A stretch of 53,872 nt of DNA from Mycobacterium sherrisii (GTDB lineage Bacteria; Actinomycetota; Actinomycetes; Mycobacteriales; Mycobacteriaceae). Within the stretch, counting starts at the first letter, position 1, and each line of letters starts with the position of its first letter. The DNA is taken from the NCBI RefSeq assembly GCF_002102355.1, contig NZ_LQPT01000098.1, forward strand, positions 1-53,872, in the 5' to 3' direction. The position numbers and the translations under genes were made by a program. Below the pieces are notes generated by a model, which was given only the letters and a program-made list of their open reading frames with translations, made no database searches and was not told where the DNA came from. Shown here one piece after another: positions 9,778-48,511 of the stretch.

Positions 9778-10710
9778 TTGTCTGCTGCAGACCACGGCGC
9801 GCAGGCGCGCAGGCATCGCGTCACCCACCGCACCGAGTACCGCTATTCCGACGTCGTGACCAGCTCCTATGGCCGCGGCTTCCTCACCCCGCGGGACTCG
9901 CAGCGGCAGCGCTGCATCGCGCACCGGCTGACCATCGACCCGGTCCCGGCGGACAGCTCGACCAGCGTCGACGGCTACGGCAACATCAGCTCCTACTTCC
10001 ACGTCACCGAGCCGCACCGCGCTTTGACCGTGATCAGCGACTCCATCGTCGACGTCTACCCGGCGCCACCCCAGCGGTACAGCAGCGGTCCGGCCATCCA
10101 ACCGTGGGAGCAGGCCCGGCCGTCCGGGCGTCGCGGCGCGCTGGCCACCGAGTACGCGCTGGACCTCAATCCACCCGAGATCACCGACGAGGTCCGCGAC
10201 TACGCGGCGCCCAGTTTCGCCCCCGGCCGCCCGCTGATCGAGGCGCTGCGCGACCTCGCGTCGCGCATCTTCACCGACTTCACCTACCGGTCGGGATCGA
10301 CGACGATTTCCACCGGGGTCAATGAGGTTCTGGTGGCCCGGGAGGGGGTATGCCAAGACTTTGCCAGGCTGGCGATCGCCTGCCTGCGCGCAAACGGGTT
10401 GGCGGCCAGCTATGTCTCCGGGTATCTGGCCACCAACCCACCCCCGGGAAAGGAACGGATGATCGGAATTGACGCGACCCATGCGTGGGCCGCCGTGTGG
10501 ACTCCTCAGGAGCCCGGCCAGTTCGAGTGGCTGGGGCTGGATCCCACCAACGACCAGATGGTCGATCAGCGGTACATCATCGTTGGCCGAGGCCGCGACT
10601 ACGCCGACGTGCCGCCGCTGCGCGGCATCATCTACACCGACTCGGAACACAGCGTGATCGACGTCGCAGTCGATGTGGTGCCGTTCGAAGGTGATGAACT
10701 ATATGCGTGA
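9778..10710 (+). CDS. Transglutaminase-like cysteine peptidase family protein
   Basis: 310 residues from TTG 9778, chosen because GGGAGG ends about seven bases upstream and the following HRVTHRTEYRYSDVV is the family N-terminus. Residues about 10-110 are the N-terminal transglutaminase beta-domain. The papain-like core has C192 (GVCQDFARLAIA), H235 (DATHAWAAVW) and D255 (LDPTNDQ), a complete triad, so it should be active as a peptidase or amide-cleaving/forming enzyme. It overlaps the start of the zinc-ribbon metallopeptidase gene and lies in the cluster with the ATP-grasp/alpha-E protein and a second transglutaminase. This gene set is conserved across many bacteria and is predicted to make and hydrolyse peptide-like bonds. 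It matches Rv2569c. Confidence 0.9.
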   Translation: MSAADHGAQARRHRVTHRTEYRYSDVVTSSYGRGFLTPRDSQRQRCIAHRLTIDPVPADSSTSVDGYGNISSYFHVTEPHRALTVISDSIVDVYPAPPQRYSSGPAIQPWEQARPSGRRGALATEYALDLNPPEITDEVRDYAAPSFAPGRPLIEALRDLASRIFTDFTYRSGSTTISTGVNEVLVAREGVCQDFARLAIACLRANGLAASYVSGYLATNPPPGKERMIGIDATHAWAAVWTPQEPGQFEWLGLDPTNDQMVDQRYIIVGRGRDYADVPPLRGIIYTDSEHSVIDVAVDVVPFEGDELYA

Positions 10711-11767
10711 CTTCAATTGTCCCAACTGCGGGCAGCGGCTGGCGTTCGAGAACTCCACCTGCCTGAACTGCGGTAGCGCGCTGGGCTTTTCGCTCGAGCA
10801 GATGGCGCTGCTGGTGATTGCCGACGGAAACAACAACCAAGCCGGCGACCACGCGGGCTTCGTCGACGGCGCACAGTATCAGCTCTGCGCCAATCTGCAG
10901 GTCGCCGAATGCAATTGGCTGGTGCCGGTCAACAATCCCCGGTTGCTGTGCACGTCGTGTGCGCTGACCACCGAGCGTCCCAACGACGCCGATTCGGTCG
11001 GTTTGGCGGAGTTCGCCCAGGCCGAGGCGGCCAAGCGCCGGCTGATCGTCGAGCTGCACGAGCTGAAACTGCCGATCATCGGGCGGCAGCAGGATCCCGA
11101 GCAGGGGCTGGCCTTCCGGCTGCTGTCCAGTGCGCACGAGCAGGTGCTGACCGGCCACGAAAACGGGGTCATCACACTGGATTTGGCCGAGGGCGACGAC
11201 GCTCATCGCGAGCAGCTGCGGGTGGAGATGGACGAGCCGTACCGGACCCTGCTCGGGCATTTCCGGCACGAGATCGGCCACTACTACTTCTACCGGCTCA
11301 TCGCCCCGTCCCAGGACTACCTACGACGGTTCAACGAGCTGTTCGGTGATCCCGACGCCGACTATCAGGAGGCGCTGGACCGCCATTACAGCGAGGGCGC
11401 CCCGGAGGGCTGGCAGGAGACGTTCGTCTCGTCCTATGCCACCATGCACCCGGCCGAGGACTGGGCCGAGACGTTCGCGCACTATCTGCACATCCGCGAC
11501 ACCATGGACACCTCGGCGTGGTGCGGCTTCGCGTCGGCATCGGCGACGTTCGACCGGCCGCCGTTGGGCCCCAGCGCCTTTCCCAACATCATCGACATGT
11601 GGATCCCGCTGTCGTGGTCGCTGAACATGGTGAACCGTTCGATGGGCCACGACGATCTGTATCCGTTCGTGCTGCCGGTCGCCGTGCTGAACAAGATGCA
11701 GTTCATCCACGACGTCATCGACGAGGTGGTCTCGGCGGCGCAGGGTCCGGCCGCCGTCGCGGGCTGA
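10703..11767 (+). CDS. Zinc-ribbon putative metallopeptidase
   Basis: 354 residues from ATG 10703, which overlaps the preceding gene's stop and has GAAGGTG nine bases upstream; ATG 10694 is a less likely alternative. The N-terminus is a four-cysteine zinc ribbon (C6, C9, C20, C23). The core contains the zincin motif HEIGH at 189-193 within RHEIGHYYFYRL, and a later acidic helix AEDWAETFAHYLH that may supply a third ligand. A second cysteine pair occurs around residues 79-82 (LLCTSC). The family is annotated as putative zinc-binding metallopeptidase and travels with the transglutaminase/ATP-grasp genes on both sides. The substrate is unknown. It matches Rv2568c. Confidence 0.87.
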   Translation: MRDFNCPNCGQRLAFENSTCLNCGSALGFSLEQMALLVIADGNNNQAGDHAGFVDGAQYQLCANLQVAECNWLVPVNNPRLLCTSCALTTERPNDADSVGLAEFAQAEAAKRRLIVELHELKLPIIGRQQDPEQGLAFRLLSSAHEQVLTGHENGVITLDLAEGDDAHREQLRVEMDEPYRTLLGHFRHEIGHYYFYRLIAPSQDYLRRFNELFGDPDADYQEALDRHYSEGAPEGWQETFVSSYATMHPAEDWAETFAHYLHIRDTMDTSAWCGFASASATFDRPPLGPSAFPNIIDMWIPLSWSLNMVNRSMGHDDLYPFVLPVAVLNKMQFIHDVIDEVVSAAQGPAAVAG

Positions 11768-11768
11768 G

Positions 11769-14414
11769 CTAGGCGGGCATCTCGCGGCGTGCGTCGGGCC
11801 CCCACAGCGGCTGCATGCCGCCGGGCAGGGTGAGCTGGGTCTCGGTGATCACCTCGGCCAGGTCGCGCAGCTCGGTGTGGACGGTGGCCAGCAGATCGGC
11901 CAGCTCGGTACGCCGTCCCTCGGCGTCGGCCATCTCCAGCTCGGCTGGGTGCGAGCGGCGCAACAGCGTGGCGATCTCCTCGACGATGCGCTCCGGGCGC
12001 GACGAGCCCGACGCGCTGGGCAGCTCTTTGAGGTTGGCCCGCAACCGGTCCAGCTGATACAGCAGCGAGCGCGGATTGTCCGCGTCGAACAGCATCAGAT
12101 CGGCGACCGCGGCGACGCTGGCCTTGCCGACGGTGCGGCGCCGATAGCTGACCGACGACTCGCAGGCCGCCAGCGTCGACTCGATCACCGTCTGCTCGGC
12201 GCCGGCGCCCCGCGCGGTGGTCAGCGTGGCGCCCAGCAGAGCGGTCAGCCACAGGCCACGTTCGATGCGTTTGCCGATGTCCATCATCGACCAGCCCACG
12301 TCGCGCACCATCGATTCGCTGGCCACCCCGGACAGGGTCAGCATCCCGGCCAGCGTGCGCGCGTGCGCCGACGCCAGCAGCGTGTCGGCCTCGGCCAGCG
12401 ACTGTGGCGGCTCGGCCCGGTGGGTCAGCGCACGCTCCACATTGGCCAGCACCATCCAGGTGTCGTTGGACATCTGGTCGCGTACCGCTCGGGCGGCCAG
12501 GTCCAGCCCCTCGACCGACTGAACAAGCGAGCCGGCGCGGTTCGCATCGACGGTCAGCGACCACAGCGTCGACGGGACGATCGCGATCATCTCGGCGGGA
12601 TCGTTGCCGGCGCCGGTGTCGGTCCCGGTGATGCGGCCCAGGGCGGCCATCAGCACCGGCACCACCACGCTTTCCTCGGTGTCCTGCTGGTGGCGGTACA
12701 CGTGGAAGCGGTCCCGGGCGGCCATCAGCAGCCGGGCCGTGCTCTCGGCGCGCTCGCCATACCGCCCGATCCAGAACAGGTCGGACAATACGCGTGGTGA
12801 GCTGACGCCCCAGGTGCCCGCGGCGGTCTTCACCGGCTTCATCTCGGTTGGCAAGGTGATCGTCTCGGCCCGTGCCCGTTCCGTCGGCCGTATCCAAATA
12901 TCCTTGGCGGCAACAGTTTTCAGGGAATATGCGGCGGTTCCCGCGGCCAGCACGTAGCCTACGCCGCCGGTCATCGGGGCATACCCGCCGCGTTGTGCGA
13001 CCGTGAACAACCGCATGCCGACCCCGGCCGAGGACAACATGCCGGCGTGGTCGGTCGGCGCCGAGGAGAACTGCGGCAGCTCCTGGCCGGCCCATTGCCA
13101 CGGCATGGTCTGGATCCGGTCCGCCAGCTCCTGGCGTTGCGACGACGAAAGTTCGGGCCCGACAAGGGTTTCCCCGCCGACGGTGGACTTGACCAGCAGC
13201 GATGACAGGTTGGCCAGCAGGTGGGAGCGCTCGGCGGCGATACCGCCCCAGTACACCGGTGCGGTGTTCAGCAGCGGGGCCTCGCCGAGGAGCCGCTCGG
13301 CCAGCTCCGGCAGGAAACGCAGCACCCCGGGGCTTTCCAGGATTCCGCTGCCCAGGGTGTTGACCACGGTCACCGTGCCGCGGCGTTGGGCTTCCACCAA
13401 CCCCACCACGCCCAGCCGGGAGTCGGCCCGCAGATCCAGCGGGTCGACGTAGAGCGCGTCGACGCGCCGCAGAACGACGTCGACCTGTTTGAGCGTGCCC
13501 AGCGAGCGCATCCACACCTTGCCGTCGCGCACCACCAGGTCGGCGCTCTCCACCAGCGGAAAACCCAGCAGTGTCGCGAGATAGGCCTGATCGAAGGCGG
13601 TTTCGGAGTAGATGCCGGGGGACAGCACCACCACCACCGGGTCCTGGGCGACGTCGGGGGCTGCGTCGATCAGGGCCAGCCGCAGCGCCTGCGCGAACGG
13701 GGTGTTGGGCCGCGGCGCGATGCGCTCGTACAGATCGGGTATCGCGTGCGCGATGACGCGCCGATCGGCCAGGGCATAACCCGCGCCGGAAGGCGCCTGC
13801 GTCCAGTCCGCATTGACCTCGAAGCTGCCGGTGGGCAGTCGGCTCAGATCGCAGGCATGCATGAAAAGCTGGTGATGTCCCGGTATTTCGATGCCGGCGG
13901 CCGCCCGCACGTAGCCGGGATGAGCGAACACCAGTTCCGGCGGCAGCATGCCGTCGGTGAGCAGGCTACGCGGCCCGTACAGGTCGGCGAGCACGGCGTC
14001 GAGCAGGCGCGAGCGCTGCACCAGCCCCGCCTCCAGCGCCTCCCAATCGGCCGCGGACAACACGATCGGCAGGGTGTCGAGGTTCCACGGCCGCGGTTCC
14101 AGCGCGTGCGGATCGTCGGGATGGACGTCGGTGTAGGTGATCCCGTCGTTGTCGATCAGGCTGTGCACCACCGCGCGCAGCTGATTCAGCCCGGCCCGGC
14201 CCCGCTGCGCGACGGTGTCAGCGACCTCGACCCAGGCCGGGCGGACCCTGCCGTCGGCGTCCAGGAATTCGTCGTAGCCCGCGCCGTGCAGCGTACTGGG
14301 GCGCAGGTCGAACAGCGCCTCCTGGGCGCGCGCGGTCCGGTAACCCGCGAGCAGCCGGTCGGCGTCGTAGCGGTCGCCGGACGAGGCCGTTACCGTCGAG
14401 GGGTCGAGTGCCAT
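11769..14414 (-). CDS. Circularly permuted ATP-grasp protein fused to alpha-E domain
   Basis: 881 residues. The first half (about 1-500) is a circularly permuted type 2 ATP-grasp domain, recognisable from GAGYDEFLDADGRVRP near the N-terminus, then VVLSPGIYSETAFDQAYLATLLG and a long DVVLRRVDALYVDPLDLR segment. The second half (about 540-850) is the all-helical alpha-E domain, beginning at SPRVLSDLFWIGRYGERAE. ATP-grasp proteins of this type are predicted amidoligases that join a carboxylate to an amine using ATP. In other bacteria the two halves are often separate genes; here they are fused. It ends next to the convergent metallopeptidase gene and lies just downstream of the large transglutaminase gene on the same strand. 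It matches Rv2567. Confidence 0.9.
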   Translation of the reverse strand: MALDPSTVTASSGDRYDADRLLAGYRTARAQEALFDLRPSTLHGAGYDEFLDADGRVRPAWVEVADTVAQRGRAGLNQLRAVVHSLIDNDGITYTDVHPDDPHALEPRPWNLDTLPIVLSAADWEALEAGLVQRSRLLDAVLADLYGPRSLLTDGMLPPELVFAHPGYVRAAAGIEIPGHHQLFMHACDLSRLPTGSFEVNADWTQAPSGAGYALADRRVIAHAIPDLYERIAPRPNTPFAQALRLALIDAAPDVAQDPVVVVLSPGIYSETAFDQAYLATLLGFPLVESADLVVRDGKVWMRSLGTLKQVDVVLRRVDALYVDPLDLRADSRLGVVGLVEAQRRGTVTVVNTLGSGILESPGVLRFLPELAERLLGEAPLLNTAPVYWGGIAAERSHLLANLSSLLVKSTVGGETLVGPELSSSQRQELADRIQTMPWQWAGQELPQFSSAPTDHAGMLSSAGVGMRLFTVAQRGGYAPMTGGVGYVLAAGTAAYSLKTVAAKDIWIRPTERARAETITLPTEMKPVKTAAGTWGVSSPRVLSDLFWIGRYGERAESTARLLMAARDRFHVYRHQQDTEESVVVPVLMAALGRITGTDTGAGNDPAEMIAIVPSTLWSLTVDANRAGSLVQSVEGLDLAARAVRDQMSNDTWMVLANVERALTHRAEPPQSLAEADTLLASAHARTLAGMLTLSGVASESMVRDVGWSMMDIGKRIERGLWLTALLGATLTTARGAGAEQTVIESTLAACESSVSYRRRTVGKASVAAVADLMLFDADNPRSLLYQLDRLRANLKELPSASGSSRPERIVEEIATLLRRSHPAELEMADAEGRRTELADLLATVHTELRDLAEVITETQLTLPGGMQPLWGPDARREMPA

Positions 14415-35757: not shown

Positions 35758-38604
35758 ATGAATCCCTACAGTGCCGGCCCGCGACGACTGCATGTCTCCG
35801 CGCTGGCGGCGGTGGCGAATCCGTCCTACACGCGCGTGGACACCTGGAACCTGCTTGACGACGCTTGTCGGCACCTGGCCGAGGTCGACCTGGCCGGGCT
35901 GGACAAGACGCACGAGCTGGCCAAGGTCCGGCGATTGATGGATCGTCTGGCTGCCTACGAGCGGTACTGGCTGTATCCGGGCGCGGAGAACCTGGCAACC
36001 TTTCGCGCCCACCTGGAAAGCCTGTCCACGGTGCGACTCGCCGAAGAGGTGTCGCTGGCGGTGCGTTTGCTCAGCGAATATGGCGACCGCACAGCACTTT
36101 TCAACACTTCCGCGCCGCTGGCCGACCAGGAGCTGGTGGCCCAGGCCAAGCAGCAACAGTTCTATACCGTGTTGCTCGCCGACGACTCGCCCAACACCGG
36201 ACCCGATTGCCTGGCCGAGGCACTGCGCGACCTGCGTTCCCAGTCCGAGGATGTCCAGTTCGAGCTGCTGGTGGTGACGAGCGTCGAGGACGCCATCACC
36301 GCGGTCGCCCTGAACGGCGAAATCCAGGCCGCGATCATCCGCCACGACGTGTCGTTGCGCTCGCGTGACCGGGTGCCGTTGATGAACACCCTGCTGGGCG
36401 CCACCAAAGATGCGGTGAGTCGCGACTGCGGCAGCGACTGCATCGAATGCGGCGCCTGGATTCGCGAGCTGCGGCCGCACATCGACCTTTATCTGCTCAC
36501 CGACGAGTCCATCGCGGCCGGCAGCGACGAGGAAAACGACGTTTACGATCGGACGTTCTACCGCCTCAACGACGTCACCGACCTGTACAGCACGGTGGTG
36601 GCCGGATTGCGGAACCGTTTCGCCACACCGTTTTTCGACGCCCTGCGCGCGTACGCCGGAGCGCCGGTCGGTCAATTCCACGCGCTGCCGGTGGCCCGCG
36701 GCGCCAGCGTCTTCAACTCGCGTTCGCTGCAGGACATGGGAGAGTTCTACGGCCGCAACATCTTCATGGCCGAGACCTCGACCACCTCGGGTGGTCTGGA
36801 CTCGCTGCTCGACCCGCACGGCAACATCAAGAAGGCGATGGACAAGGCCGCGCACACCTGGAACTCCCACCAGACCTACTTCGTCACCAACGGCACCTCG
36901 ACCGCCAACAAGATCGTCGTGCAGTCGTTGACCCGGCCCGGTGACATCGTGCTGATCGACCGTAACTGCCACAAGTCGCACCACTACGGCCTGGTGCTGG
37001 CCGGCGCCTACCCGCTGTACCTGGATGCCTACCCGCTGCCGCAGTTCGCCATCTACGGTGCCGTGCCACTGCAGACGATCAAAAAGGCGTTGCTCGAACT
37101 CGAAGAGGCCGGCCAGCTGGACAAGGTGCGGATGCTGTTGCTCACCAACTGCATCTTCGACGGTGTCGTCTACAACCCGCAGCGGGTGATGGAGGAGGTG
37201 CTGGCGATCAAGCCGGATATCTGCTTCTTGTGGGACGAGGCATGGTACGCCTTCGCCACGGCCGTGCCGTGGGCCCGGCAGCGCACGGCGATGGTGGCCG
37301 CGGAACGTCTCGAGCAGCTGCTGGCATCACCGGAATACGCTGTGCAGTACCGCAATTGGGCCGCATCCATGGATGCCATCCCGCGATCGGAGTGGGTGAA
37401 CCACCGGCTGTTGCCCGACCCGACCCGGGCGCGGGTGCGGGTGTATGCGACGCACTCCACGCACAAGTCGCTGTCGGCGTTTCGGCAGGCGTCGATGATT
37501 CACGTCCGCGACCGGGATTTCAATTCGCGGGCCCGCGACGCGTTCGGTGAGGCGTTTTTGACCCACACCTCGACGTCGCCGAACCAGCAGCTGCTGGCCT
37601 CGCTGGATCTGGCCCGCCGGCAGGTCGACATCGAGGGCTTCCAGTTGGTCCGGCAGGTCTACGACATGGCGCTGGTGTTTCGGCACCGTGTCCGCAAGGA
37701 CCGGCTGATCAGCAAGTGGTTTCGCATTCTCGACGAATCCGACCTGGTGCCCGAGGAATTCCGGGCCTCCGCGGTCAGCTCGTACCGGGAGGTGCGCCAG
37801 GGCGCGCTGGCCGAGTGGAACGAGGCGTGGCGCTCCGACCAGTTCGTGTTGGACCCGACCCGCGTCACCCTGTTTTTGGGCAATACCGGGATGAACGGGT
37901 ACGACTTCCGCGAGAAGATCCTGATGGAGCGCTTCGGGATCCAGATCAACAAGACCTCGATCAACAGCGTGCTGCTGATCTTCACGATCGGGGTCACCTG
38001 GTCGAGCGTGCACCACCTGCTCGACGTGCTGCGCCGGGTGGCGACCGACCTCGATCGGGAGCGGGAACTGGCCAGCGCCGCCGACTGGTCCCTGCATCAG
38101 CGACGTGTCGAGGAACTCACCGAGGATCTGCCGCACCTGCCCGACTTCAGCGAGTTCGACATCGCGTTCAAACCGGTGGACTCGTGCGCGTTCGGTGACA
38201 TGCGCTCGGCGTTCTACGCCGGTTACGAGGAGTCCGACCGGGAGTACGTGCAGATCGGCAGCGCCGGTCGGCGAATCGCCGAGGGCCGCAAGCTGGTGTC
38301 GACCACGTTCGTGGTGCCTTACCCGCCGGGCTTTCCCGTCCTGGTTCCGGGTCAGGTGGTGTCCAAGGAGATTTTGTATTTCCTGGCCCAGCTCGACGTC
38401 AAGGAAATCCACGGCTACAACCCGGAACTCGGCCTGTCGGTGTTCACCGCCGAGGCGCTGGCCCGGCTGGAGGCCCAGCGCAGCGCGGCGGCCGCCGCGG
38501 TCGGCACCGCCTACCCGTCGTTCGAGTTGCCCGCGGACCCGTCGGTGCTCAATGGGGCGCGCAACGGGGACCGCGTCCGGCACCCCGTCGGCGAGGACGC
38601 GTGA
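35758..38604 (+). CDS. Orn/Lys/Arg-type PLP amino acid decarboxylase
   Basis: 948 residues from ATG 35758. It probably decarboxylates a basic amino acid to a polyamine or related amine. The N-terminal 240 residues contain a receiver-like wing domain (RDLRSQSEDVQFELLVV). The PLP fold-type I core shows YFVTNGTSTANKIVVQ, DRNCHKSHHYGLVLAG, CFLWDEAWYAFA and ATHSTHKSLSAFRQ with the Schiff-base lysine K570. The C-terminal domain has VVPYPPGFPVLVPGQ, typical of the family. It is about 200 residues longer than the inducible E. coli enzymes. It matches Rv2531c and stands alone downstream of the efp-nusB run. The exact amino acid cannot be told. Confidence 0.92.
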   Translation: MNPYSAGPRRLHVSALAAVANPSYTRVDTWNLLDDACRHLAEVDLAGLDKTHELAKVRRLMDRLAAYERYWLYPGAENLATFRAHLESLSTVRLAEEVSLAVRLLSEYGDRTALFNTSAPLADQELVAQAKQQQFYTVLLADDSPNTGPDCLAEALRDLRSQSEDVQFELLVVTSVEDAITAVALNGEIQAAIIRHDVSLRSRDRVPLMNTLLGATKDAVSRDCGSDCIECGAWIRELRPHIDLYLLTDESIAAGSDEENDVYDRTFYRLNDVTDLYSTVVAGLRNRFATPFFDALRAYAGAPVGQFHALPVARGASVFNSRSLQDMGEFYGRNIFMAETSTTSGGLDSLLDPHGNIKKAMDKAAHTWNSHQTYFVTNGTSTANKIVVQSLTRPGDIVLIDRNCHKSHHYGLVLAGAYPLYLDAYPLPQFAIYGAVPLQTIKKALLELEEAGQLDKVRMLLLTNCIFDGVVYNPQRVMEEVLAIKPDICFLWDEAWYAFATAVPWARQRTAMVAAERLEQLLASPEYAVQYRNWAASMDAIPRSEWVNHRLLPDPTRARVRVYATHSTHKSLSAFRQASMIHVRDRDFNSRARDAFGEAFLTHTSTSPNQQLLASLDLARRQVDIEGFQLVRQVYDMALVFRHRVRKDRLISKWFRILDESDLVPEEFRASAVSSYREVRQGALAEWNEAWRSDQFVLDPTRVTLFLGNTGMNGYDFREKILMERFGIQINKTSINSVLLIFTIGVTWSSVHHLLDVLRRVATDLDRERELASAADWSLHQRRVEELTEDLPHLPDFSEFDIAFKPVDSCAFGDMRSAFYAGYEESDREYVQIGSAGRRIAEGRKLVSTTFVVPYPPGFPVLVPGQVVSKEILYFLAQLDVKEIHGYNPELGLSVFTAEALARLEAQRSAAAAAVGTAYPSFELPADPSVLNGARNGDRVRHPVGEDA

Positions 38605-39198: not shown

Positions 39199-39936
39199 GT
39201 GGCGGAGGCGATAGCTATCGGAGGACCCCGGGCCGATCGTGCCCGCCGGGTTGCCGACGTGCTCCGTCAGCAGATTCACGCCGCCGCCTATCCCGACGGT
39301 CTGCCCGCCGAAAGCGATCTGGCGGCCGAGTTCTCGGTGTCGCGCAACACCATTCGCGAGGCGCTGGGCATCCTCAAACAAGAGGGCCTGATCGACCGCG
39401 GGCCCAAGGTCGGCACCCATGTCGCGCAGCGCAAGTATGACCACCGGATCGACTCCCTGCTGGGCCTCAAGGAGACCTTCAAACACGTCGGCGAGGTCCG
39501 CAACGAGGTGCGGGCCGCCATGTCCGTGGTCGCGCCGCCGGCGGTGGCCCACCGGCTGCGCCTGGCCCCCGGCGAGCAGGCCGTGTTCATCGAGCGCTTG
39601 CGCTACCTGGGCGACCTGCCGCTCAGCCTCGACCTGACCTACCTCACCCGCGAGATCGGCACCCGAATCCTCGAGCATTCGCTGGAGACCAACGACGTGT
39701 TCGCGCTCATCGAACAGGTCACCGGGCAGTCGCTGGGCTCGGCGTCGCTGGCGCTGGAAGCCATTCCGGCCGACGCACACTCCGCGGCGACGCTGCAGGT
39801 GCCCGACGGAGCACCCGTGCTCATGCTGGAGCGTCTCACCAGCCTCGACGACGGCAACCCCGTCGACCTGGAGTACATCCGGATGCGGGGAGACCGAATC
39901 ACCATGCGCGGCAACCTGATAAGGAGCAAGCCATGA
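39199..39936 (+). CDS. GntR-family (HutC type, UTRA domain) regulator
   Basis: 245 residues from GTG 39199. The N-terminal winged helix (about 10-75) has ADVLRQQIHAAAYPDGLPAESDLAAEFSVSRNTIREAL, here the standard GntR pattern. The UTRA effector domain (about 95-240) shows LRLAPGEQAVFIERLRYL, PLSLDLTYLTREIG and the end PVLMLERLTSLDDGNPVDLEYIRMRGDR. It is the first gene of the flavoprotein/ABC operon: its TGA overlaps the ATG of the ferredoxin gene, so it very likely regulates the operon and itself. The effector is unknown; UTRA domains often bind the substrate or a metabolite of the controlled pathway. Confidence 0.92.
   Translation: MAEAIAIGGPRADRARRVADVLRQQIHAAAYPDGLPAESDLAAEFSVSRNTIREALGILKQEGLIDRGPKVGTHVAQRKYDHRIDSLLGLKETFKHVGEVRNEVRAAMSVVAPPAVAHRLRLAPGEQAVFIERLRYLGDLPLSLDLTYLTREIGTRILEHSLETNDVFALIEQVTGQSLGSASLALEAIPADAHSAATLQVPDGAPVLMLERLTSLDDGNPVDLEYIRMRGDRITMRGNLIRSKP
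39209..39220. promoter_or_regulatory. Perfect 12-bp palindrome at the 5' end of the GntR gene
   Basis: CGATAGCTATCG is a perfect dyad in codons 4-8 of the GntR-family gene. HutC-type regulators bind short dyads, often near their own promoter, so this is a possible autoregulatory site. Chance occurrence in coding DNA cannot be excluded, and no second copy was seen upstream. Confidence 0.3.
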
Positions 39937-40163
39937 CGCTGGTCAACAACAACCGCGTCGACGTGCCGGTCACCGTCGACGAGTCGCTGTGTATCGACGG
40001 CTGTACCCTCTGCGTCGAGGTCTGTCCGCTGGACGCGCTGGCCATCAACCCCGACACCGGCAAGGCGTACATGCACGTCGACGAGTGCTGGTACTGCGGC
40101 CCCTGCGCGGCGCGCTGTCCCACCGGTGCCGTCACCGTCAACATGCCGTATCTACTCCGCTGA
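39933..40163 (+). CDS. Small 2x[4Fe-4S] ferredoxin, AprB-like
   Basis: 76 residues from ATG 39933 (ATGA overlap with the GntR gene). Two cluster motifs are seen: C20-x3-C24-x2-C27-x3-C31-P and C52-x2-C55-x2-C58-x3-C62-P. The first has three residues between the first two cysteines instead of the usual two. The second half (DECWYCGPCAARCPTGAVTV) is close in pattern to the beta subunit of APS reductase, AprB, which has CWxCxxCxxxCPxGA. The C-terminal tail of true AprB, which wraps the alpha subunit, is missing. As the only electron carrier in the operon it probably feeds or drains the flavoprotein encoded at 43186. Confidence 0.88.
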   Translation: MTLVNNNRVDVPVTVDESLCIDGCTLCVEVCPLDALAINPDTGKAYMHVDECWYCGPCAARCPTGAVTVNMPYLLR

Positions 40164-40188
40164 AACACATTACAGCCCAGGAACTTTG

Positions 40189-41571
40189 ATGAAACGACAG
40201 GCCATTCGGCTGATCGTGGCGATGACCGTCGCGGTGGTGTCCGGCTGCTCGCTGGAATCGTTGTCGGCGAGCTCCGGCGTCGTCAGCGTCGTCATCGGTT
40301 ACCAATCCAAGACCATCAACACCGTGACCGCCGGGACGCTGCTGCGGGCGCAAGGCTATCTCGAGCATCGGCTCGCCGACATCACCACCCGCACCGGCAC
40401 CAAATACGCGGTGCGATGGCAGGATTACGACACCGGCGCACCGATCACCGCGCAGATGTTGGCCGAGAAGATCGACATCGGCTCGATGGGGGATTACCCC
40501 ATGCTGATCAACGGCTCCAAGACGCAGGCCAACCCGCTGGCGAAGACCGAGATCGTCTCGATCACCGGCTACAACCCCAAGGGCGCGCTGAACATGGTGG
40601 TGGTGGCACCGGGTTCGTCGGCGGCCACGTTGAGCGATCTGGCCGGGTCGAAGGTCTCGGCCAGTGTCGGTTCGGCGGGCCACGGCACCCTGGTTCGCGC
40701 CCTGGACCGGGCCGGGATTCGTGGTGTCGAAGTGCTCAACCAGCAGCCGCAGGTGGGCGCCTCTGCTTTGGAATCAGGTCAGGTACAAGGACTTTCGCAG
40801 TTCGTTGCCTGGCCCGGGTTGCTGGTATTCCAGGGCAAGGCCAAGCTGCTCTACGACGGCGCCGAACTGAACCTGCCCACCCTGCACGGTGTGGTGGTGC
40901 GGCGCTCCTACGCGGCCGCGCACCCGGAAGTGCTGGCGGCGTTCCTGCAAGCCCAACTGGACGCCACCGACTTCCTCAACGCCAAGCCGCTGGAGGCGGC
41001 CCGCATCGTCGCGCAGGCGAGCGGACTGCCGCAGGAAGTGGTGTACCTCTACAACGGCCCCGGTGGCACGTCGTTCGACACCACCCTGAAGCCGTCGCTG
41101 ATCGAGGCGCTGAAAAACGATGTGCCCTATCTGAAGTCGATCGGCGACTTCGCCGACCTCGACGTCAGCGGTTTCGTGCAGGACGCCCCGCTGCGCGCGG
41201 TGTTCGGCGCACGCGGCCGAGACTACGACGCCGCCAGGGCGGCTACGGCCAACCCCTCGGCGCTGAGCGGGGACCCGGCCCTCGCCAGTGAACTGTGGTT
41301 GGACGGAGCGGATTCCAGCCAAACCGTCGCCGATCCGACCGCTCTGCTCCGCGCGATCCGGGACGCGACCGCCCGCGGTGGCAAGGTACGCGCCGCCTAC
41401 GTGCCCGACGCCGAGCTGGGCACCCGGTGGTTCGCCGACAAGGCGGTCTGGGTGCAGGACGGCGCGACCTACCTGCCGTTCGGAACCCCGGCCGGCGCGC
41501 ACCGCTATCTGGCCGCCCATCCCGGCGGCAGCCTCGTGAACTACCAACAAGCCCTTGGAGGTTCGCTATGA
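40189..41571 (+). CDS. Sulfonate/nitrate-type substrate-binding lipoprotein with NosL-like C-terminus
   Basis: 460 residues from ATG 40189. A signal peptide ends in the lipobox V-S-G-C20, so the protein is probably lipid-anchored outside the membrane. Residues about 35-350 form a periplasmic-binding fold of the SsuA/TauA/NrtA type (VVIGYQSKTINT, KIDIGSMGDYPMLI, LAGSKVSASVGSAGHG, VVVRRSYAAAHPEVLAAFLQAQL). Such binding proteins are normally about 320 residues. The extra 100 residues (about 360-455) look like a NosL domain: a hydrophobic D-x-x-x-L-L helix, VRAAYVPD, WFADKAVWVQDG, then PFGTPAGAHRYLAAHPGG. NosL proteins bind copper in nitrous oxide reductase assembly, but the key methionine/cysteine ligands are not evident here. 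The permease gene overlaps its stop. Confidence 0.87.
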   Translation: MKRQAIRLIVAMTVAVVSGCSLESLSASSGVVSVVIGYQSKTINTVTAGTLLRAQGYLEHRLADITTRTGTKYAVRWQDYDTGAPITAQMLAEKIDIGSMGDYPMLINGSKTQANPLAKTEIVSITGYNPKGALNMVVVAPGSSAATLSDLAGSKVSASVGSAGHGTLVRALDRAGIRGVEVLNQQPQVGASALESGQVQGLSQFVAWPGLLVFQGKAKLLYDGAELNLPTLHGVVVRRSYAAAHPEVLAAFLQAQLDATDFLNAKPLEAARIVAQASGLPQEVVYLYNGPGGTSFDTTLKPSLIEALKNDVPYLKSIGDFADLDVSGFVQDAPLRAVFGARGRDYDAARAATANPSALSGDPALASELWLDGADSSQTVADPTALLRAIRDATARGGKVRAAYVPDAELGTRWFADKAVWVQDGATYLPFGTPAGAHRYLAAHPGGSLVNYQQALGGSL

Positions 41572-42440
41572 CCGCATATCTGACCGGCGATCCGGCCGCC
41601 CCGGTCACCGGGCACGTCGTCGACCCCGCCCCGGTGGCCGGCACACCGCGACGCACCGCCTCCCCGTGGCAGTGGCGGCTGCTGCGGCTCGCGTCGGTCG
41701 TCGCGGCGATCGGGTTATGGCAGCTGCTCACCGCCGACAAGGTGCGGTTGCTGCTGCGATTCGACACGCTGCCCACGGTCACCGAGATCGTGCACGCGCT
41801 GGGCCACCGGCTGGGAACCTACGAGTACTGGCTGGACCTGGCGCAGTCGCTGATCCGGATTCTCACCGGGTTCGGGCTGGCCGCGGTGATCGGCGTCGCG
41901 ACCGGCGTGCTGTTGGGCCGTTCCCGCTTGTTCGCCAACACTTTTGGTCCGCTGGCCGAGTTGGCCCGGCCCATCCCCGCGATCGCGATGGTGCCGGTGG
42001 CGATCCTGTTGTTCCCGACCGACGAGTCCGGCATCGTGTTCATCACCTTCCTGGCCGCCTACTTCCCGATCATGGTCAGCACCCGGCACGCGGTACGGGC
42101 GCTGCCCACCCTGTGGGAAGACTCGGTGCGCACGCTCGGCGGCAACCGGTGGGACGTCCTCAAACAGGTGGTGCTGCCGGGCATCCTGCCCGGCGTGTTC
42201 GGCGGCCTGTCGGTTGGCATGGGGGTGGCGTGGATCTGCGTGATCTCCGCGGAGATGATCTCCGGCCGACTGGGCATCGGCTACCGCACCTGGCAGGACT
42301 ACACGGTGCTGGCCTACCCCCAGGTGTTCGTCGGCATCATCACCATCGGCGTGCTGGGATTCGCGACCGCCGCGGCCGTCGAGGTCGTGGGTCGCCGGGT
42401 GACCAGCTGGCTGCCGCGCGCGGAGGAGGAACACCGATGA
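41568..42440 (+). CDS. ABC transporter permease, SsuC/TauC/NrtB family
   Basis: 290 residues from ATG 41568 (ATGA overlap). It has about six membrane segments after a 35-residue cytoplasmic start. The family landmarks are the LPTVTEIVHAL segment, the SLIRILTGFGLAAVIGVATGVLLGRS span, RPIPAIAMVPVAILLFPTDES, and the EAA-like coupling loop RTLGGNRWDVLKQVVLPGILPGVFGGL around 187-213 which contacts the ATPase. It would form the channel for the substrate captured by the lipoprotein. The closest characterised relatives import sulfonates, taurine, nitrate or cyanate; the sequence does not choose among them. Confidence 0.92.
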   Translation: MTAYLTGDPAAPVTGHVVDPAPVAGTPRRTASPWQWRLLRLASVVAAIGLWQLLTADKVRLLLRFDTLPTVTEIVHALGHRLGTYEYWLDLAQSLIRILTGFGLAAVIGVATGVLLGRSRLFANTFGPLAELARPIPAIAMVPVAILLFPTDESGIVFITFLAAYFPIMVSTRHAVRALPTLWEDSVRTLGGNRWDVLKQVVLPGILPGVFGGLSVGMGVAWICVISAEMISGRLGIGYRTWQDYTVLAYPQVFVGIITIGVLGFATAAAVEVVGRRVTSWLPRAEEEHR

Positions 42441-43189
42441 CCTCAAAACAAGCGGGAATGAGTCTCGAATTGGATCGAGTTCGCCTGTCCTACACCGGGT
42501 TGCCGGTGATCGACGGCCTGAGTCTGGCCGTGCGTCCCGGTGAGATCCTGGTGCTGACCGGGCCGTCGGGTTGCGGCAAGTCGACGGTGTTGCGCGCGCT
42601 GGCCGGGCTGCTGCGCCCGGATGCCGGGCGCATCGTGGCCGACGGCGCCGAGGTGACCACCACCTCCGGTGATCGCGGCATGGTGTTCCAGGACAACGCG
42701 CTGTTGCCGTGGCGCACGGTGCGTTCCAACATCGAGCTGGCGCTGCGGTTGCGCGGTGTCCCGCGGGCCGGCCGCCGCGCGGAGGCCGACCGCTGGATCG
42801 GTGAACTCGGCCTCACCGGCTTCGGCGACTACCTGCCCAAGAGTTTGTCCGGCGGCATGCGCCAGCGGGTGCAGCTGGCCCGGGGGTTGGCCGGCGCGCC
42901 GCGCGCGGTGCTGATGGACGAACCGTTCGGCGCGCTGGACACCCAGACCCGCACGGCCATGCAGCGGCTGCTGATCGAGACCTGGAGCGCGCACCCGACC
43001 ACGATCGTCTTCGTCACCCACGACGTCGACGAGGCGCTGCTGTTGGGTGACCGGATCGCCGTGCTCGGCAGGGCGGGCCAGCCGCTGCGCGCCCTGGTCG
43101 AGGTGCCGGAGCCGCGCGTCGATCAACAGCGCGGTGCGCTTCGCGCCGAAGTGGTCGCCGCACTTGATCATTCGGCGGTGGCGGCATGA
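42437..43189 (+). CDS. ABC transporter ATP-binding protein, SsuB/TauB/NrtD family
   Basis: 250 residues from ATG 42437 (ATGA overlap with the permease). Walker A GPSGCGKST is at 42-50, Q-loop MVFQDNALLPW follows, the signature LSGGMRQRVQLARG is around 136-149, Walker B VLMDEPFGALD and the H-loop VFVTHDVDEALLLGDR complete a full set. All catalytic residues are present. Length is normal for this family. It energises import by the permease upstream, and its stop overlaps the start of the flavoprotein gene, tying transport to the redox enzyme in one transcript. Confidence 0.94.
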   Translation: MTSKQAGMSLELDRVRLSYTGLPVIDGLSLAVRPGEILVLTGPSGCGKSTVLRALAGLLRPDAGRIVADGAEVTTTSGDRGMVFQDNALLPWRTVRSNIELALRLRGVPRAGRRAEADRWIGELGLTGFGDYLPKSLSGGMRQRVQLARGLAGAPRAVLMDEPFGALDTQTRTAMQRLLIETWSAHPTTIVFVTHDVDEALLLGDRIAVLGRAGQPLRALVEVPEPRVDQQRGALRAEVVAALDHSAVAA

Positions 43190-45882
43190 TGCAGATCCCC
43201 GACCCGGCGGCGCCGGGGCGGCTGGACTGTGACGTGCTGGTCATCGGCGGCGGCACCGCCGGCACCATGGCCGCGTTGTCGGCCGCCGAGCACGGCGCGC
43301 AGGTGCTGCTGTTGGAGAAGGCGCACGTGCGGCACTCCGGTGCGCTGGCGATGGGCATGGACGGTGTCAACAACGCCGTCATCCCGGGCAAGGCCGAGCC
43401 CGAGGATTACGTCGCGGAGATCACCCGCGCCAACGACGGAATCGTCAACCAGCGCACCATCTATCAGACCGCCACCCGCGGCTTCGCGATGGTGCAGCGG
43501 TTGGAACGCTACGGGGTCAAGTTCGAAAAGGACGAGCACGGCGAGTACGCGGTGCGCCGGGTGCATCGCTCCGGCTCCTACGTGTTGCCGATGCCGGAGG
43601 GCAAGGACGTCAAGAAGGCGCTCTATCGGGTGCTGCGGCAACGGTCGATGCGGGAGAAGATCCGCATCGAGAACCGGCTGATGCCGGTCCGGGTGCTGGT
43701 TCAGGACGGGCGCGCAGTGGGTGCGGCCGCGTTGCACACCCGCACCGGCGAGTTCGTCGCCATCGGCGCCAAGGCGGTGATCCTGGCGACCGGGGCCTGC
43801 GGCCGGCTCGGGCTGCCGGCGTCGGGTTACCTGTACGGCACGTATGAGAACCCGACCAACGCCGGCGACGGGTACGCGATGGCCTACCACGCCGGTGCCG
43901 AGCTGTCCGGCATCGAATGCTTCCAGATCAATCCGCTGATCAAGGATTACAACGGTCCGGCCTGCGCGTATGTGGCCAACCCGTTCGGCGGCTACCAGGT
44001 CAACGCGGCCGGGGAGCGTTTCGTCGACTCCGACTACTGGTCCGGGCAGATGATTTCGGAGGTGAAACGCGAAATCGACTCCGCGCGCGGGCCGATCTAT
44101 CTGAAGGTGTCCCACCTGCCCGATGAGACGCTGACCGCGCTGGAGAACATCCTGCACACCACCGAGCGTCCCACCCGCGGCACGTTCCACGCCAACCGCG
44201 GACACGACTACCGCACCCACGACATCGAGATGCACATCTCCGAAATCGGTTTGTGCAGCGGTCATTCCGCATCCGGGGTCTGGGTCGACGAGCACGCCCG
44301 CACCACGGTGCCGGGCCTGTATGCGGCCGGAGATCTGGCCTGTGTCCCACACAACTACATGATCGGGGCGTTCGTGTTCGGCGACCTCGCCGGCACCCAT
44401 GCCGCCTCGATAAGCACGGTAGTTGATGCGCCGCAACAGCTTCCGCAAGATCAGCTGCGCGAGGCGCACGAGCTGATCTACCGGCCGCTGCGGCATCCGG
44501 ACGGCCCGCCGCAACCGCAGGTGGAATACAAGCTGCGCCGGTTCGTCAACGACTACGTGGCCCCGCCGAAGACGGCCGCCAAACTGTCCATCGCGGTGCG
44601 CACGTTCGACCGGATGCAGGGCGAAATCGCCGAGATGGGGGCGCGCACCCCGCACGAGTTGATGCGGGCCGTCGAGGTGTCGTTCATCCGCGACTGCGCC
44701 GAGATGGCCGCGCGCTCCTCACTGACCCGCACCGAATCCCGCTGGGGCCTCTACCACGAGCGGGCCGACCTGCCGGTCCGCGACGACAGCGAATGGGGCT
44801 ATCACCTCAACCTGCGCAAGGGGCCCGACGGCGAGATGGTGTTCCTCAAGCGCCCCGTCGCCCCGTACCTGGTGTCGGTGCCGGAGCTCGACGGCCTGCC
44901 ACCGGTGGACCAGACGGTGCACGCGGTGGCGCAGCCGCCGCTGGTCGGCGGCAAGGCACCGGCCACGGCGGGATCGCGAATCACCCCCGCCGCCTCCGCG
45001 TTCGAGCCGCCTTCGCCGCGGATCGCGCAGGTGCTGGCCCTGGAGGAGCCCACGATCGCCGATCTGCGGACGTACCTCGAAGACGCCGATCCCGGGGTGC
45101 GCCGCACCGCGGTGGCCACCCTGACCGAACACATCCCCGATGGGTATGCGTCGGCCCTGTTCGCCGCGCTGGACGACACCGATGCGGGGGTGCGCCGCAC
45201 CAGCGCCGAGGGCATCCGCGAGCTGGTCGAGGTGTTGCCCGACCCCGGCGGCGCGCAACCCTACCTGTCGTCGCCCGACACGGTGGTCCGGGCGGCTGCG
45301 GTCTATCTGCTGGCCGCCCGCCGCGTCGGCGCGCCCGGCCACTACCACCGCGCGCTGGACGACCCGGACCACCGGGTGCGTATCGAGGCGGTGCGCGCTT
45401 TGGTCTCGGTCGACGACGTGGCGGGGGTTGAGCGGGCCACCCGCGACGAAAGCCGGGAGGTGCGGATCGCGGCCGCCGCCGGCCTGGCCACGCTGCGCGC
45501 CGGTGGCGCGGCCGTCCGCGCGCTGATCAATGACGCCGATCCGCTGGTGCGGGCCGCCGCGCTGACCGCGCTGAGCGAATTGGGCTGCAGCCAAGACGAT
45601 TTGGTCGCCGTCGAGCGGTCGCTGCGGGCACCGGCGTGGCAGATACGCGAGGGCGCCGCACGCGCGCTGGCCGGAGCCGTCGCCGAACGCGCGGTGCCCC
45701 TGCTGGCCGAGGCGTTGTCCGACGCACACCTCGACGTGCGCAAGGCGGCGGTATTGAGCCTGACCCGGTGGGCGGGTGACGCCGCGGCCCGCGACGCCCT
45801 GGGCCTCGCGCTCAAGGACAGCGACGCCGATGTGCGCGCCTATGCACGCCGTGCGTTGGACACCGCTGTCGCCGGTATCTAG
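43186..45882 (+). CDS. AprA/fumarate reductase-type flavoprotein fused to HEAT repeats
   Basis: 898 residues from ATG 43186; a second ATG follows directly. Residues 1-560 are an FAD enzyme of the succinate dehydrogenase/fumarate reductase/APS reductase alpha family: CDVLVIGGGTAGTMAAL (FAD loop), RHSGALAMGMDGVNN, ATGACGRLG, CSGHSASGVWVDE and VPGLYAAGDLACVPHNYM. The wording of the RHSGALAMGM and GDLACVPHN regions is closer to APS reductase alpha (AprA) than to quinone-linked fumarate reductases. Residues about 615-898 are seven or so HEAT/PBS-lyase-type repeats with the unit D-P-x-V-R-x-x-A-x-x-A-L. This fusion should provide a protein-binding scaffold. It closes the operon. The substrate is unknown; an organosulfur redox role is an inference. 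Confidence 0.87.
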   Translation: MMQIPDPAAPGRLDCDVLVIGGGTAGTMAALSAAEHGAQVLLLEKAHVRHSGALAMGMDGVNNAVIPGKAEPEDYVAEITRANDGIVNQRTIYQTATRGFAMVQRLERYGVKFEKDEHGEYAVRRVHRSGSYVLPMPEGKDVKKALYRVLRQRSMREKIRIENRLMPVRVLVQDGRAVGAAALHTRTGEFVAIGAKAVILATGACGRLGLPASGYLYGTYENPTNAGDGYAMAYHAGAELSGIECFQINPLIKDYNGPACAYVANPFGGYQVNAAGERFVDSDYWSGQMISEVKREIDSARGPIYLKVSHLPDETLTALENILHTTERPTRGTFHANRGHDYRTHDIEMHISEIGLCSGHSASGVWVDEHARTTVPGLYAAGDLACVPHNYMIGAFVFGDLAGTHAASISTVVDAPQQLPQDQLREAHELIYRPLRHPDGPPQPQVEYKLRRFVNDYVAPPKTAAKLSIAVRTFDRMQGEIAEMGARTPHELMRAVEVSFIRDCAEMAARSSLTRTESRWGLYHERADLPVRDDSEWGYHLNLRKGPDGEMVFLKRPVAPYLVSVPELDGLPPVDQTVHAVAQPPLVGGKAPATAGSRITPAASAFEPPSPRIAQVLALEEPTIADLRTYLEDADPGVRRTAVATLTEHIPDGYASALFAALDDTDAGVRRTSAEGIRELVEVLPDPGGAQPYLSSPDTVVRAAAVYLLAARRVGAPGHYHRALDDPDHRVRIEAVRALVSVDDVAGVERATRDESREVRIAAAAGLATLRAGGAAVRALINDADPLVRAAALTALSELGCSQDDLVAVERSLRAPAWQIREGAARALAGAVAERAVPLLAEALSDAHLDVRKAAVLSLTRWAGDAAARDALGLALKDSDADVRAYARRALDTAVAGI

Positions 45883-47094: not shown

Positions 47095-48511
47095 ATGCGG
47101 CCTTTCGAATTGACGCTGGCCGCGGCCGCGCGGCAGATCCGGGCCGGGGTGCTGTCGCCGGTCGAGCTCACCGAGTCGGTGCTGGCCCGCATCGACGCGG
47201 TCGATCCGCAGATCACGGCGTTCAGCAACGTCACCGGCGGAGCTGGCCATCGAGACCGCCGCCCTGGCCGAGCGGGAGATCGCGGCCGGCCGGTACCGGG
47301 GACCGCTGCACGGAATCCCCATCGGGGTCAAGGAAATCTACGACATGGCCGGCGTCCCCAGCACCTCGAGCTCGCGGGTGCGGGCGGACTACCTGCCCGA
47401 CGAGGACAGCGTCGTCGTCGCGAAGCTGCGTCAGGCCGGCGCGGTCGTGGTGGGACGCACCCAGTCACACGAGTTCGCCTACGGAGTCGTCACGCCGCAG
47501 ACGCGCAACCCCTGGCGCACGGACCGCATCGCGGGCGGATCCAGCGGCGGGTCGGCGGCCGCCGTCGCCGTCGGGGCGTGCTTCCTCGGACTGGGCAGCG
47601 ACACGGCCGGATCCATCCGCATCCCCGCCGCCCTGTGCGGCACCGTGGGGCTCAAACCCTCCTATGGCCGGGTGTCCCGGACCGGCGTCACACCGTTTGC
47701 CTGGTCGCTGGATCACGCCGGCCCGCTGACCCGCTCGGTCGAGGATGCGGCTCTGGCGATGAACGTGATGGCCGGTTACGACCCAGGCGACCCGGGCTCG
47801 GTGGACATCCCCGTGCCGGACTTCGCGGCTGACCTGGGCCGCGAGGTGGCGGGGACGACGGCCGGGGTCCCGGTAAACCTCTTCACCGAGCACGTCGACC
47901 CGCAGATCAAAATCGCGGTCGACGCGGCGTGCACCCGGCTGGCCGACCTCGGGGTGCGGCTGCGTGAAGTCCGGCTGCCCATGGCCGACGAGGTGATGGC
48001 CACCGAATTCGGGATCCTGCAGCCCGAGGCGGCCAGTTTTCACGAGCAGACGCTGCGCGAGCACGGCGACCTCTACACCGAGGACGTGCGTGCGGCATTG
48101 CAGGCCGGAATGTCGGTATTGGCGACGGATTACCTTGCCGCACAACGCAAGCGGGACCTCTTCCGGCGGCAGTGGAACGCGCTCTTCGACGAGATCGACA
48201 TCCTGGTCGCCCCGACGGTGCCGGTCGCGGCGATGGAGGCAGCCCGCCCGGAGGTGACCTGGCCGGACGGGCTCACCGAGGGCCCGGTGCAGGCATACAT
48301 CCGGTTTTCCGCCCCGGCGAACCTTGCCGGGCTGCCCGCGCTTTCGGTGCCGTGCGGATTCACCGACGCCGGCCTGCCGATCGGCCTGCAGATCATCGGT
48401 CGCGCCTTCGACGAGGCCACCGTGCTACGCGTGGGCCACGCCTATCAGTCCGCGGCGGACTGGCCGTCGTGGCCGCCGGTGGTGGCAGCCGAGCGCAGCG
48501 TTTTGGCGTAG
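47095..48511 (+). pseudogene. Amidase signature family protein, broken by one frameshift
   Basis: Amidase-signature enzymes hydrolyse amides with a Ser-cisSer-Lys triad. The frame from ATG 47095 gives MRPFELTLAAAARQIRAGVL and proceeds normally to NVTG (47227-47238), then leaves the family. Homology resumes one base later in the next frame as ELAIETAALAEREIAAG and runs intact to 48511. Removing one G in GGCGGAG (about 47236-47240) restores a single protein of about 471 residues. All catalytic residues are present: K in IGVKEIYD, S in GGSSGGS and S in GSDTAGSIRIPAA. It is either recently inactivated or carries a sequencing error. It is controlled, probably, by the TetR protein through two dyads upstream. 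Confidence 0.85.

Follow-up and report, generated by a model that had tools for sequence, protein, structure and literature searches.

According to its structural description, the adenosine 5'-phosphosulfate (APS) reductase AprBA of Archaeoglobus fulgidus contacts the sulfate of APS directly through Asn74 and His398 of the flavoprotein subunit AprA and, via water, through Arg265 and Trp234; Arg265 further connects to the phosphate and the ribose of APS, Leu278 and Arg317 clamp its adenine, and Trp-B48 of the ferredoxin subunit AprB lies in the electron path (PMC2211403). Likewise, Trp42 is placed in the electron path of the 3'-phosphoadenosine 5'-phosphosulfate (PAPS) reductase (PAPSR) of Methanothermococcus thermolithotrophicus, PDB entry 8A8O (PMC10322725). 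A flavoprotein-ferredoxin pair that, by its sequence, is probably built like AprBA and would share its flavin chemistry is encoded by a six-gene operon of Mycobacterium sherrisii, located in a stretch of 53,872 nucleotides (contig NZ_LQPT01000098.1, hereafter the window, within a genome of 5.56 Mb). We propose that this operon is a sulfur-scavenging cassette, which would import an oxidized organosulfur compound and release sulfite from it by ferredoxin-driven reduction, a reading to which we give even chances. The evidence computed here comprises the gene set, the lineage of the flavoprotein, the residues that its family has conserved and lost, and the recurring gene partners.

The closest solved structure to the flavoprotein (43186-45882, including a C-terminal HEAT-repeat domain) in a PDB search is 8A8O alpha (3.7e-56), followed by A. 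fulgidus AprA (2FJA, 1.1e-28) and then by succinate dehydrogenases (4.5e-24). A maximum-likelihood tree was built from 35 hand-chosen rows (15 from the family of this flavoprotein, 5 PAPSR-type, 5 AprA-type and 10 other flavoproteins). The family forms its own clade (support 100/100), AprA and PAPSR form another (100/100), and the two share a branch (100/98) apart from the 10 other rows, the family being sister to the AprA/PAPSR clade and not within it in this tree, which is midpoint-rooted and has several long outer branches. A 67-row quick tree, computed with no thorough search, shows the same grouping. As for the row labels, all five AprA rows exceed the cut-off of TIGR02061 and four of the five PAPSR-type rows that of NF005331, the fifth being 8A8O itself; the other rows comprise three over the SdhA cut-off, three over that of PRK07803, one over that of NadB, two Frd/TfrA-like rows under the cut-offs and one (L020) with no model match at E 1e-60. 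The SdhA, Frd-type and NadB rows all lie opposite the family, which therefore does not group with ordinary fumarate reductases or with aspartate oxidases, the grouping that the initial annotation had named as a refutation. An identity as L-aspartate oxidase was rejected on residues, on tree position, with a single NadB row (L033) that falls on the succinate dehydrogenase/fumarate reductase (Sdh/Frd) side, and on the NadB cut-off (TIGR00551, 117.8 of 452.75 bits).

Among family models, the flavoprotein scores 1746.6 bits against a cut-off of 1196 with NF010374 (PRK13800; protein residues 2-892 on profile positions 1-896 of 898) and 871.4 bits, over the cut-off, with NF006131 (PRK08275), both of which carry the name fumarate reductase/succinate dehydrogenase flavoprotein subunit. 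It stays below the cut-offs of the AprA-type model NF005331 (268.3 of 557 bits), of TIGR02061 for AprA (128.7 of 641.75) and of TIGR01812 and TIGR01816 for SdhA/FrdA (153.2 of 567.3 and 131.8 of 727.35, respectively), and scores 162.5 bits with the TfrA model.

The substrate site was compared with AprA and Sdh/Frd, as the initial annotation had suggested, in an alignment holding 51 rows of the family (the window, 32 other actinobacterial and 18 non-actinobacterial). Asn74 and His398 of AprA (Asn62 and His360 in the window) are conserved in all 51, as is Lys267. Arg265 is replaced by Leu (Leu251 in the window) and Trp234 by Tyr (Tyr220) in every family row, and both are retained in all eight AprA and all five PAPSR rows; APS-like substrate handling is therefore not supported. 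The sulfate pocket looks partly retained and the nucleotide-reaching Arg gone, a pattern compatible with a substrate that carries no AMP. The positions that are catalytic in Sdh/Frd (His in HPT, His in CHY, Arg in HGxNRLG and Arg in RGxGG) are occupied in all 51 family rows by N, I, a gap and N/S/G, respectively, and are retained in both Sdh rows of the same alignment. As predictions from sequence, these lineage and residue statements are firm.

The ferredoxin (76 residues) stops shortly past its second cluster motif, and the C-terminal tail of AprB is absent. A Trp follows directly behind the first Cys of the second motif in all 14 aligned cassette ferredoxins and in the PAPSR beta subunit of Ilyobacter, and the Cys-Trp form occurs in 81 of the 82 family loci where the pattern matched, in a scan that misses most Gram-negative copies. 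The PDB matches include 8A8O beta (1e-7) and AprB (3GYX, 1.1e-7), and the AprB cut-off of TIGR02060 is not reached (32.1 of 135.65 bits). Since polyferredoxins outscore both structures, the assignment as a beta subunit rests on the partner gene and the relay Trp. Together with the structure matches and the joint tree branch, this Trp bears out the resemblance to AprA and AprB noted in the initial annotation. At another locus (L149), a ferredoxin-like stretch beside a PAPSR-type alpha gene, possibly the partner of that alpha, has Thr in place of the relay Trp.

All six genes share one orientation and together span 39199 to 45882, and Pfam and NCBIfam scans confirmed the domain assignments of all six products. 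That they form one operon is borne out by the reading frames, by ATGA overlaps at four of the five junctions (39933-39936, 41568-41571, 42437-42440 and 43186-43189), and by recurrence in other actinobacteria. The overlaps had been described as joining five of the six genes; four of five junctions is the correct wording, a gap of 25 bases (40164-40188) separating the ferredoxin and binding-protein genes. The motifs quoted at the outset are present: CWYCGPCAARCPTGA in the ferredoxin, and RHSGALAMGMDGVNN and GDLACVPHNYM in the flavoprotein.

A genome scan confirmed at least 588 stretches, and the best 80, all actinobacterial, were analyzed; the closest relatives among them are from Mycobacterium species (up to 89% protein identity). 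All six genes occur in 74 of these 80 loci, with the same order and strand in all 74 and an extra gap in two (L098 and L106), a recurrence beyond what chance would give. The remaining six lack two to four genes and are short or at contig ends; in L092 the ferredoxin and flavoprotein genes lie close together with no ATP-binding cassette (ABC) genes in between. The flavoprotein family was found in 12 of 396 genomes of an Actinomycetota sample (own genome included) and, over the NF010374 cut-off in a sample of relatives, in 11 of the 25 genomes from its genus (its own among them) and in none of the 16 others. Plasmids yielded 56 records at E 1e-30, the 40 listed including rhizobia, Burkholderiales, Acinetobacter, methylotrophs, cyanobacteria, Acidithiobacillus and others. 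From these matches, 22 annotated non-actinobacterial copies were picked by hand (excluding the unannotated L163 and L169 and the actinobacterial L039); all 22 contain the ferredoxin gene and 18 a fully annotated ABC trio (not L041, L158, L162 and L165). The cassette thus recurs across actinobacteria, cyanobacteria and proteobacteria.

In all 22 non-actinobacterial cassettes the HEAT protein is encoded by a separate gene (two fragments in L174), whereas it is fused to the flavoprotein in actinobacterial copies, where a HEAT marker matches 76 of the 80 best loci; this arrangement points to a physical partner. In a ten-sequence set, the fused domain matches nine separate cassette HEAT proteins at 8e-11 to 3e-18. 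Orthology from sequence alone was rejected, since artificial alphaRep proteins match at up to 1e-24 across the whole PDB, which amounts to generic HEAT likeness, and the link therefore rests on gene position and fusion.

The importer trio belongs, as the initial annotation held, to the sulfonate/taurine/nitrate class, all three proteins agreeing on the class and each scoring under every NCBIfam cut-off shown (for the ATPase, the best 25 of 190 matches). Specifically, the binding protein reaches 114 of 163.5 bits with the SsuA family TIGR01728, its closest solved relatives being SsuA, TauA and one protein deposited as a nitrate transport protein; the permease is NtrB/SaoP/TauC/SsuC-like; and the ATPase scores 209 bits with the taurine ATPase model (cut-off 357). 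Cys20 of the binding protein, within a lipobox judged by eye, is invariant in 28 rows. The binding protein also carries a C-terminal extension, which in non-actinobacterial counterparts matches NosL (PF05573) in seven of seven cases (E <=0.0042), four of them over the curated 24-bit cut-off. The corresponding segment of the window matches no Pfam family, and actinobacterial segments are tied to the others weakly in our alignment (A4), at 18-22% identity to the reference row. That the NosL-like domain binds copper is unsupported, as the invariant columns of this alignment are Tyr, Trp, Asp, Phe and Ala, with no Cys, Met or His.

Sulfur-related genes lie within about 9 kb of 11 of the 22 non-actinobacterial cassettes. 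Exporters of the TauE/SafE type adjoin five, accompanied by YeiH-type or annotated sulfate exporters in L040, L159 and L160 and standing without them in L161 and L178. The other six cassettes are flanked by sulfonate binding proteins (L041), a luciferase-like monooxygenase (LLM) with an SsuA-type importer (L042), MsnO8-type LLM enzymes (L048), TauD with sulfonate and sulfate importers (L165 and L176), or an LLM enzyme with mercaptopropionate dioxygenase and rhodanese (L177). Left out of this count were a TSUP transporter located 7 kb from L044 and the thiamine genes of L175. Additionally, Mrp/NBP35 (four) or DUF971/GBBH-like proteins (14) accompany 18 of the 22 cassettes. Regarding electron supply, an FdxA and a ferredoxin-NADP reductase are annotated alongside the cassette of L164, L163 has matches to both, and L158 has FdxA with no reductase noted; these partners favor the reductive direction. 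In L158, an Acidithiobacillus caldus plasmid, FdxA and the cassette also adjoin a gene (10574-14035) for a 1153-residue flavin adenine dinucleotide (FAD) protein whose sole match is Pyr_redox_2.

In the mechanism that we propose, the lipoprotein-dependent importer would take in a small oxidized sulfur compound. Electrons could pass from NADPH through a ferredoxin reductase and a carrier ferredoxin to the dedicated two-cluster ferredoxin, and from its relay Trp to the FAD of the AprA-like subunit, where the substrate would be reduced, most likely by transient transfer of an SO3 group to flavin N5 before sulfite is freed and then assimilated or exported by the cell. The HEAT part may serve as a third, scaffold-like subunit, and the GntR/UTRA regulator may sense the substrate or the product. 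On chemical judgement, substrates with good leaving groups (S-sulfonates, N-sulfonates and alpha-carbonyl sulfonates) would be easier than plain alkanesulfonates. A bolder version, which we hold tentatively and consider rather doubtful, is that the family represents a third AprBA-type lineage that has abandoned nucleotides in favor of the reductive cleavage of sulfonates or related SO3-bearing compounds, via a flavin N5-sulfite adduct and independently of oxygen; such a desulfonation route would be present across actinobacteria, cyanobacteria and proteobacteria, concealed by a fumarate-reductase name.

Several points weigh against sulfur scavenging. We infer the substrate class, the reductive direction, the N5-sulfite step, the role of the HEAT part and the effector, and it is because of the first three that we rate the proposal no higher. 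Attack by flavin N5 would suit unactivated C-S bonds poorly, and the NosL-like domain finds no explanation in the model. The count of 11 sulfur neighborhoods in 22 is a raw one, the other 11 cassettes have no recognized sulfur neighbor, and close relatives within the set (L040/L160, L165/L176, L175/L178 and others, several of the 11 included) mean that the 22 do not count as independent cases. The import-coupled organosulfur role that the initial annotation envisaged fits the sulfur genes beside half of these cassettes, with no particular substrate or GntR effector supported. TauE is moreover a common family, present in 14 of 14 control genomes. Markers for TauE, ferredoxin-NADP reductase, Mrp and DUF971 have no match in the 80 best actinobacterial loci, where two YeiH-like and one FdxA-like matches all lie on the opposite strand; the cyanobacterial TauE marker is insensitive, scoring 54 bits with the TauE that is annotated in L159. 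Clustering of the reading frames of 78 actinobacterial loci returned the operon and apparent core-genome neighbors, and no sulfur genes were seen among them. Finally, the family has Val for Gln145 of AprA, Glu for Tyr95, and Ala, Thr or Gly for Leu278, but these positions vary among PAPSR or AprA rows too and carry little weight, so that the residue case rests on Arg265 and Trp234.

The alternative that survives best, unlikely as we judge it, is that a repurposed flavoprotein reduces an imported non-sulfur substrate, such as a nitro compound or a nitrate-like, carboxylate or heteroatom anion. Because the importer proteins score below the SsuA, TauA and NtrB cut-offs, and their components match nitrate and phosphonate models as well, non-sulfur anions are possible ligands; the cassettes devoid of a recognized sulfur neighbor fit this view, and we know of no link between NosL-like domains and sulfur. 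However, the AprA sulfate-contact residues are retained throughout the family, and sulfonate or sulfite genes adjoin several distant cassettes.

Somewhat less probable still is an oxidative direction, in which sulfite or another reduced sulfur anion would be oxidized on the flavin, electrons would leave through the ferredoxin and exporters would clear the product. TauE and annotated sulfate exporters do adjoin some cassettes, and AprBA is able to run toward sulfite oxidation, as its description states (PMC2211403), but a dedicated importer is at odds with an internal supply, and the ferredoxin-NADP reductase partners suggest electron input.

It is very unlikely that the pair is a true APS or PAPS reductase serving an alternative assimilatory route, with the importer bringing in sulfate or activated sulfate. 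The lineage is related, 8A8O is itself assimilatory, and on an Ilyobacter polytropus plasmid (L167, 5330-10661) a PAPSR-type alpha/beta pair stands together with cysC, cysD and a gene for a GTP-binding protein. Membership was nevertheless rejected, as Arg265 and Trp234, kept in all 13 AprA and PAPSR rows, are replaced in all 51 rows of the family, and no CysC, CysD or Sat is annotated in the 22 cassettes. Moreover, the host genome encodes a thioredoxin-type CysH (over the NF002537 and TIGR02055 cut-offs) and has no match to ATP sulfurylase PF01747 anywhere, which also upholds the earlier remark that no sat gene is adjacent; a second APS reductase is therefore not needed. Two further PAPS_reduct-family matches, in loci with CysN-like GTPase frames recognized by eye, are taken as CysD, and ordinary sulfate assimilation seems, from these genes, to be in place. 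In the Ilyobacter set, the PAPS reductase pathway of the methanogen has a bacterial relative. Separately, a 4.9 kb piece (L168) of a 21.8 kb unannotated Klebsiella pneumoniae plasmid record holds a gene over the TIGR02061 AprA cut-off (952.6 bits), which is unexpected for this species and possibly reflects a contaminant or a misassigned record.

That the flavoprotein is an ordinary fumarate reductase or succinate dehydrogenase subunit is hardly credible and was rejected: the NF010374 equivalog name speaks for it, but the catalytic residues are lost, the family falls outside the Sdh/Frd side of the tree and the Sdh/Frd cut-offs are not reached, so that the database name looks wrong.

Features of the operon and of its surroundings in the window
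Feature	Position	Strand	Support
GntR-family regulator with UTRA effector domain (HutC/PhnF type)	39199..39936	+	Pfam GntR 1.7e-15, UTRA 8e-31
76-aa 2x[4Fe-4S] ferredoxin, putative beta-type subunit, Cys-Trp relay motif ECWYCGPC	39933..40163	+	Fer4 matches
Lipoprotein substrate-binding protein, SsuA/NMT1 domain and C-terminal extension	40189..41571	+	NMT1 1e-6
C-terminal part of binding protein taken for NosL test	41161..41571	+	own Pfam scan: nothing
ABC permease	41568..42440	+	BPD_transp_1 2.2e-16
ABC ATPase, TauB/NtrD/SsuB-like	42437..43189	+	ABC_tran 1.2e-31
AprA-like FAD catalytic part, flavoprotein residues 1-567	43186..44886	+	FAD_binding_2 8.6e-39, Succ_DH_flav_C 1e-12
Linker and HEAT-repeat domain fused to flavoprotein, repeats from ~45040	44887..45882	+	HEAT_2 4.2e-26
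Large Orn/Lys/Arg decarboxylase-type protein	35758..38604		PF01276 3.8e-73
Amidase-like gene, apparently split over two frames	47095..47832 / 47345..48511	+	reading-frame list, by eye

The GntR regulator matches 23 NCBIfam models, every one under its cut-off. A palindrome resembling TGACCNGGTCA, noticed in a few upstream regions, was dropped as its operator: with up to two mismatches allowed, 21 of the 76 upstream regions contain it, and random windows drawn from these loci would predict 17.1. A palindrome located at window positions 39210-39219 has no counterpart in the 39 other upstream regions looked at (40 of 77 including its own). In three cyanobacterial plasmids (L040, L159 and L160), the cassette stands beside a divergently oriented gene for a LysR-type regulator that, at about 670 residues, far exceeds the usual length; in L040 its Pfam LysR domains are confined to the first 280 residues. 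The decarboxylase-like protein upstream of the operon recurs in 15 of 78 actinobacterial loci, and the split amidase-like gene could reflect a frameshift or an assembly error.

No characterization of this gene set was found among the open-access (PMC) papers searched, in agreement with the initial annotation, which knew of no characterized pathway with it; the flavoprotein family itself is already in the databases as NF010374 and NF006131, under a misleading name. The identifier PRK13800 has a single mention, in a fungal study. The pTcM1 copy of A. caldus may be described in a paper on the plasmids of that species.

The gene set points to a route by which sulfur could be scavenged reductively from organic compounds. 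To our knowledge, the sulfonate-scavenging enzymes of such bacteria (SsuD, TauD and MsuD) use oxygen. If our proposal holds, mostly aerobic bacteria of several phyla would possess a redox enzyme of the AprBA type that acts on something other than a nucleotide. Sulfur cycling would gain another kind of chemistry, in the form of a reductive route driven by ferredoxin, and a misleading database name would be corrected.

Among known systems, the 8A8O PAPS reductase resembles the operon in its FAD alpha subunit of the sister lineage, in its small two-cluster beta subunit with a relay Trp and in the equivalents of Asn74 and His398. It shares about 26-30% identity with the listed family members and differs in keeping Arg265 and Trp234, and the section of its description consulted mentions neither a HEAT part nor an importer (PMC10322725). 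Dissimilatory AprBA (2FJA, 1JNR and 3GYX) likewise shares the fold family, the sulfate-contacting Asn and His, and a two-cluster beta subunit with a relay Trp, whereas in the operon Arg265, Trp234 and the adenine-clamping Leu278 are changed, the beta subunit lacks the AprB tail, and both proteins fall under the TIGR02061 and TIGR02060 cut-offs. SsuABC and TauABC provide a binding protein, a permease and an ATPase of the same class; in comparison, the importer scores under their cut-offs, its binding protein is extended at the C terminus by a part that resembles NosL in relatives, and the operon contains no SsuD or TauD. Finally, the flavoprotein is a clear member of NF010374 (PRK13800) and NF006131 (PRK08275), the shared name of which is contradicted by its residues and its place in the tree.

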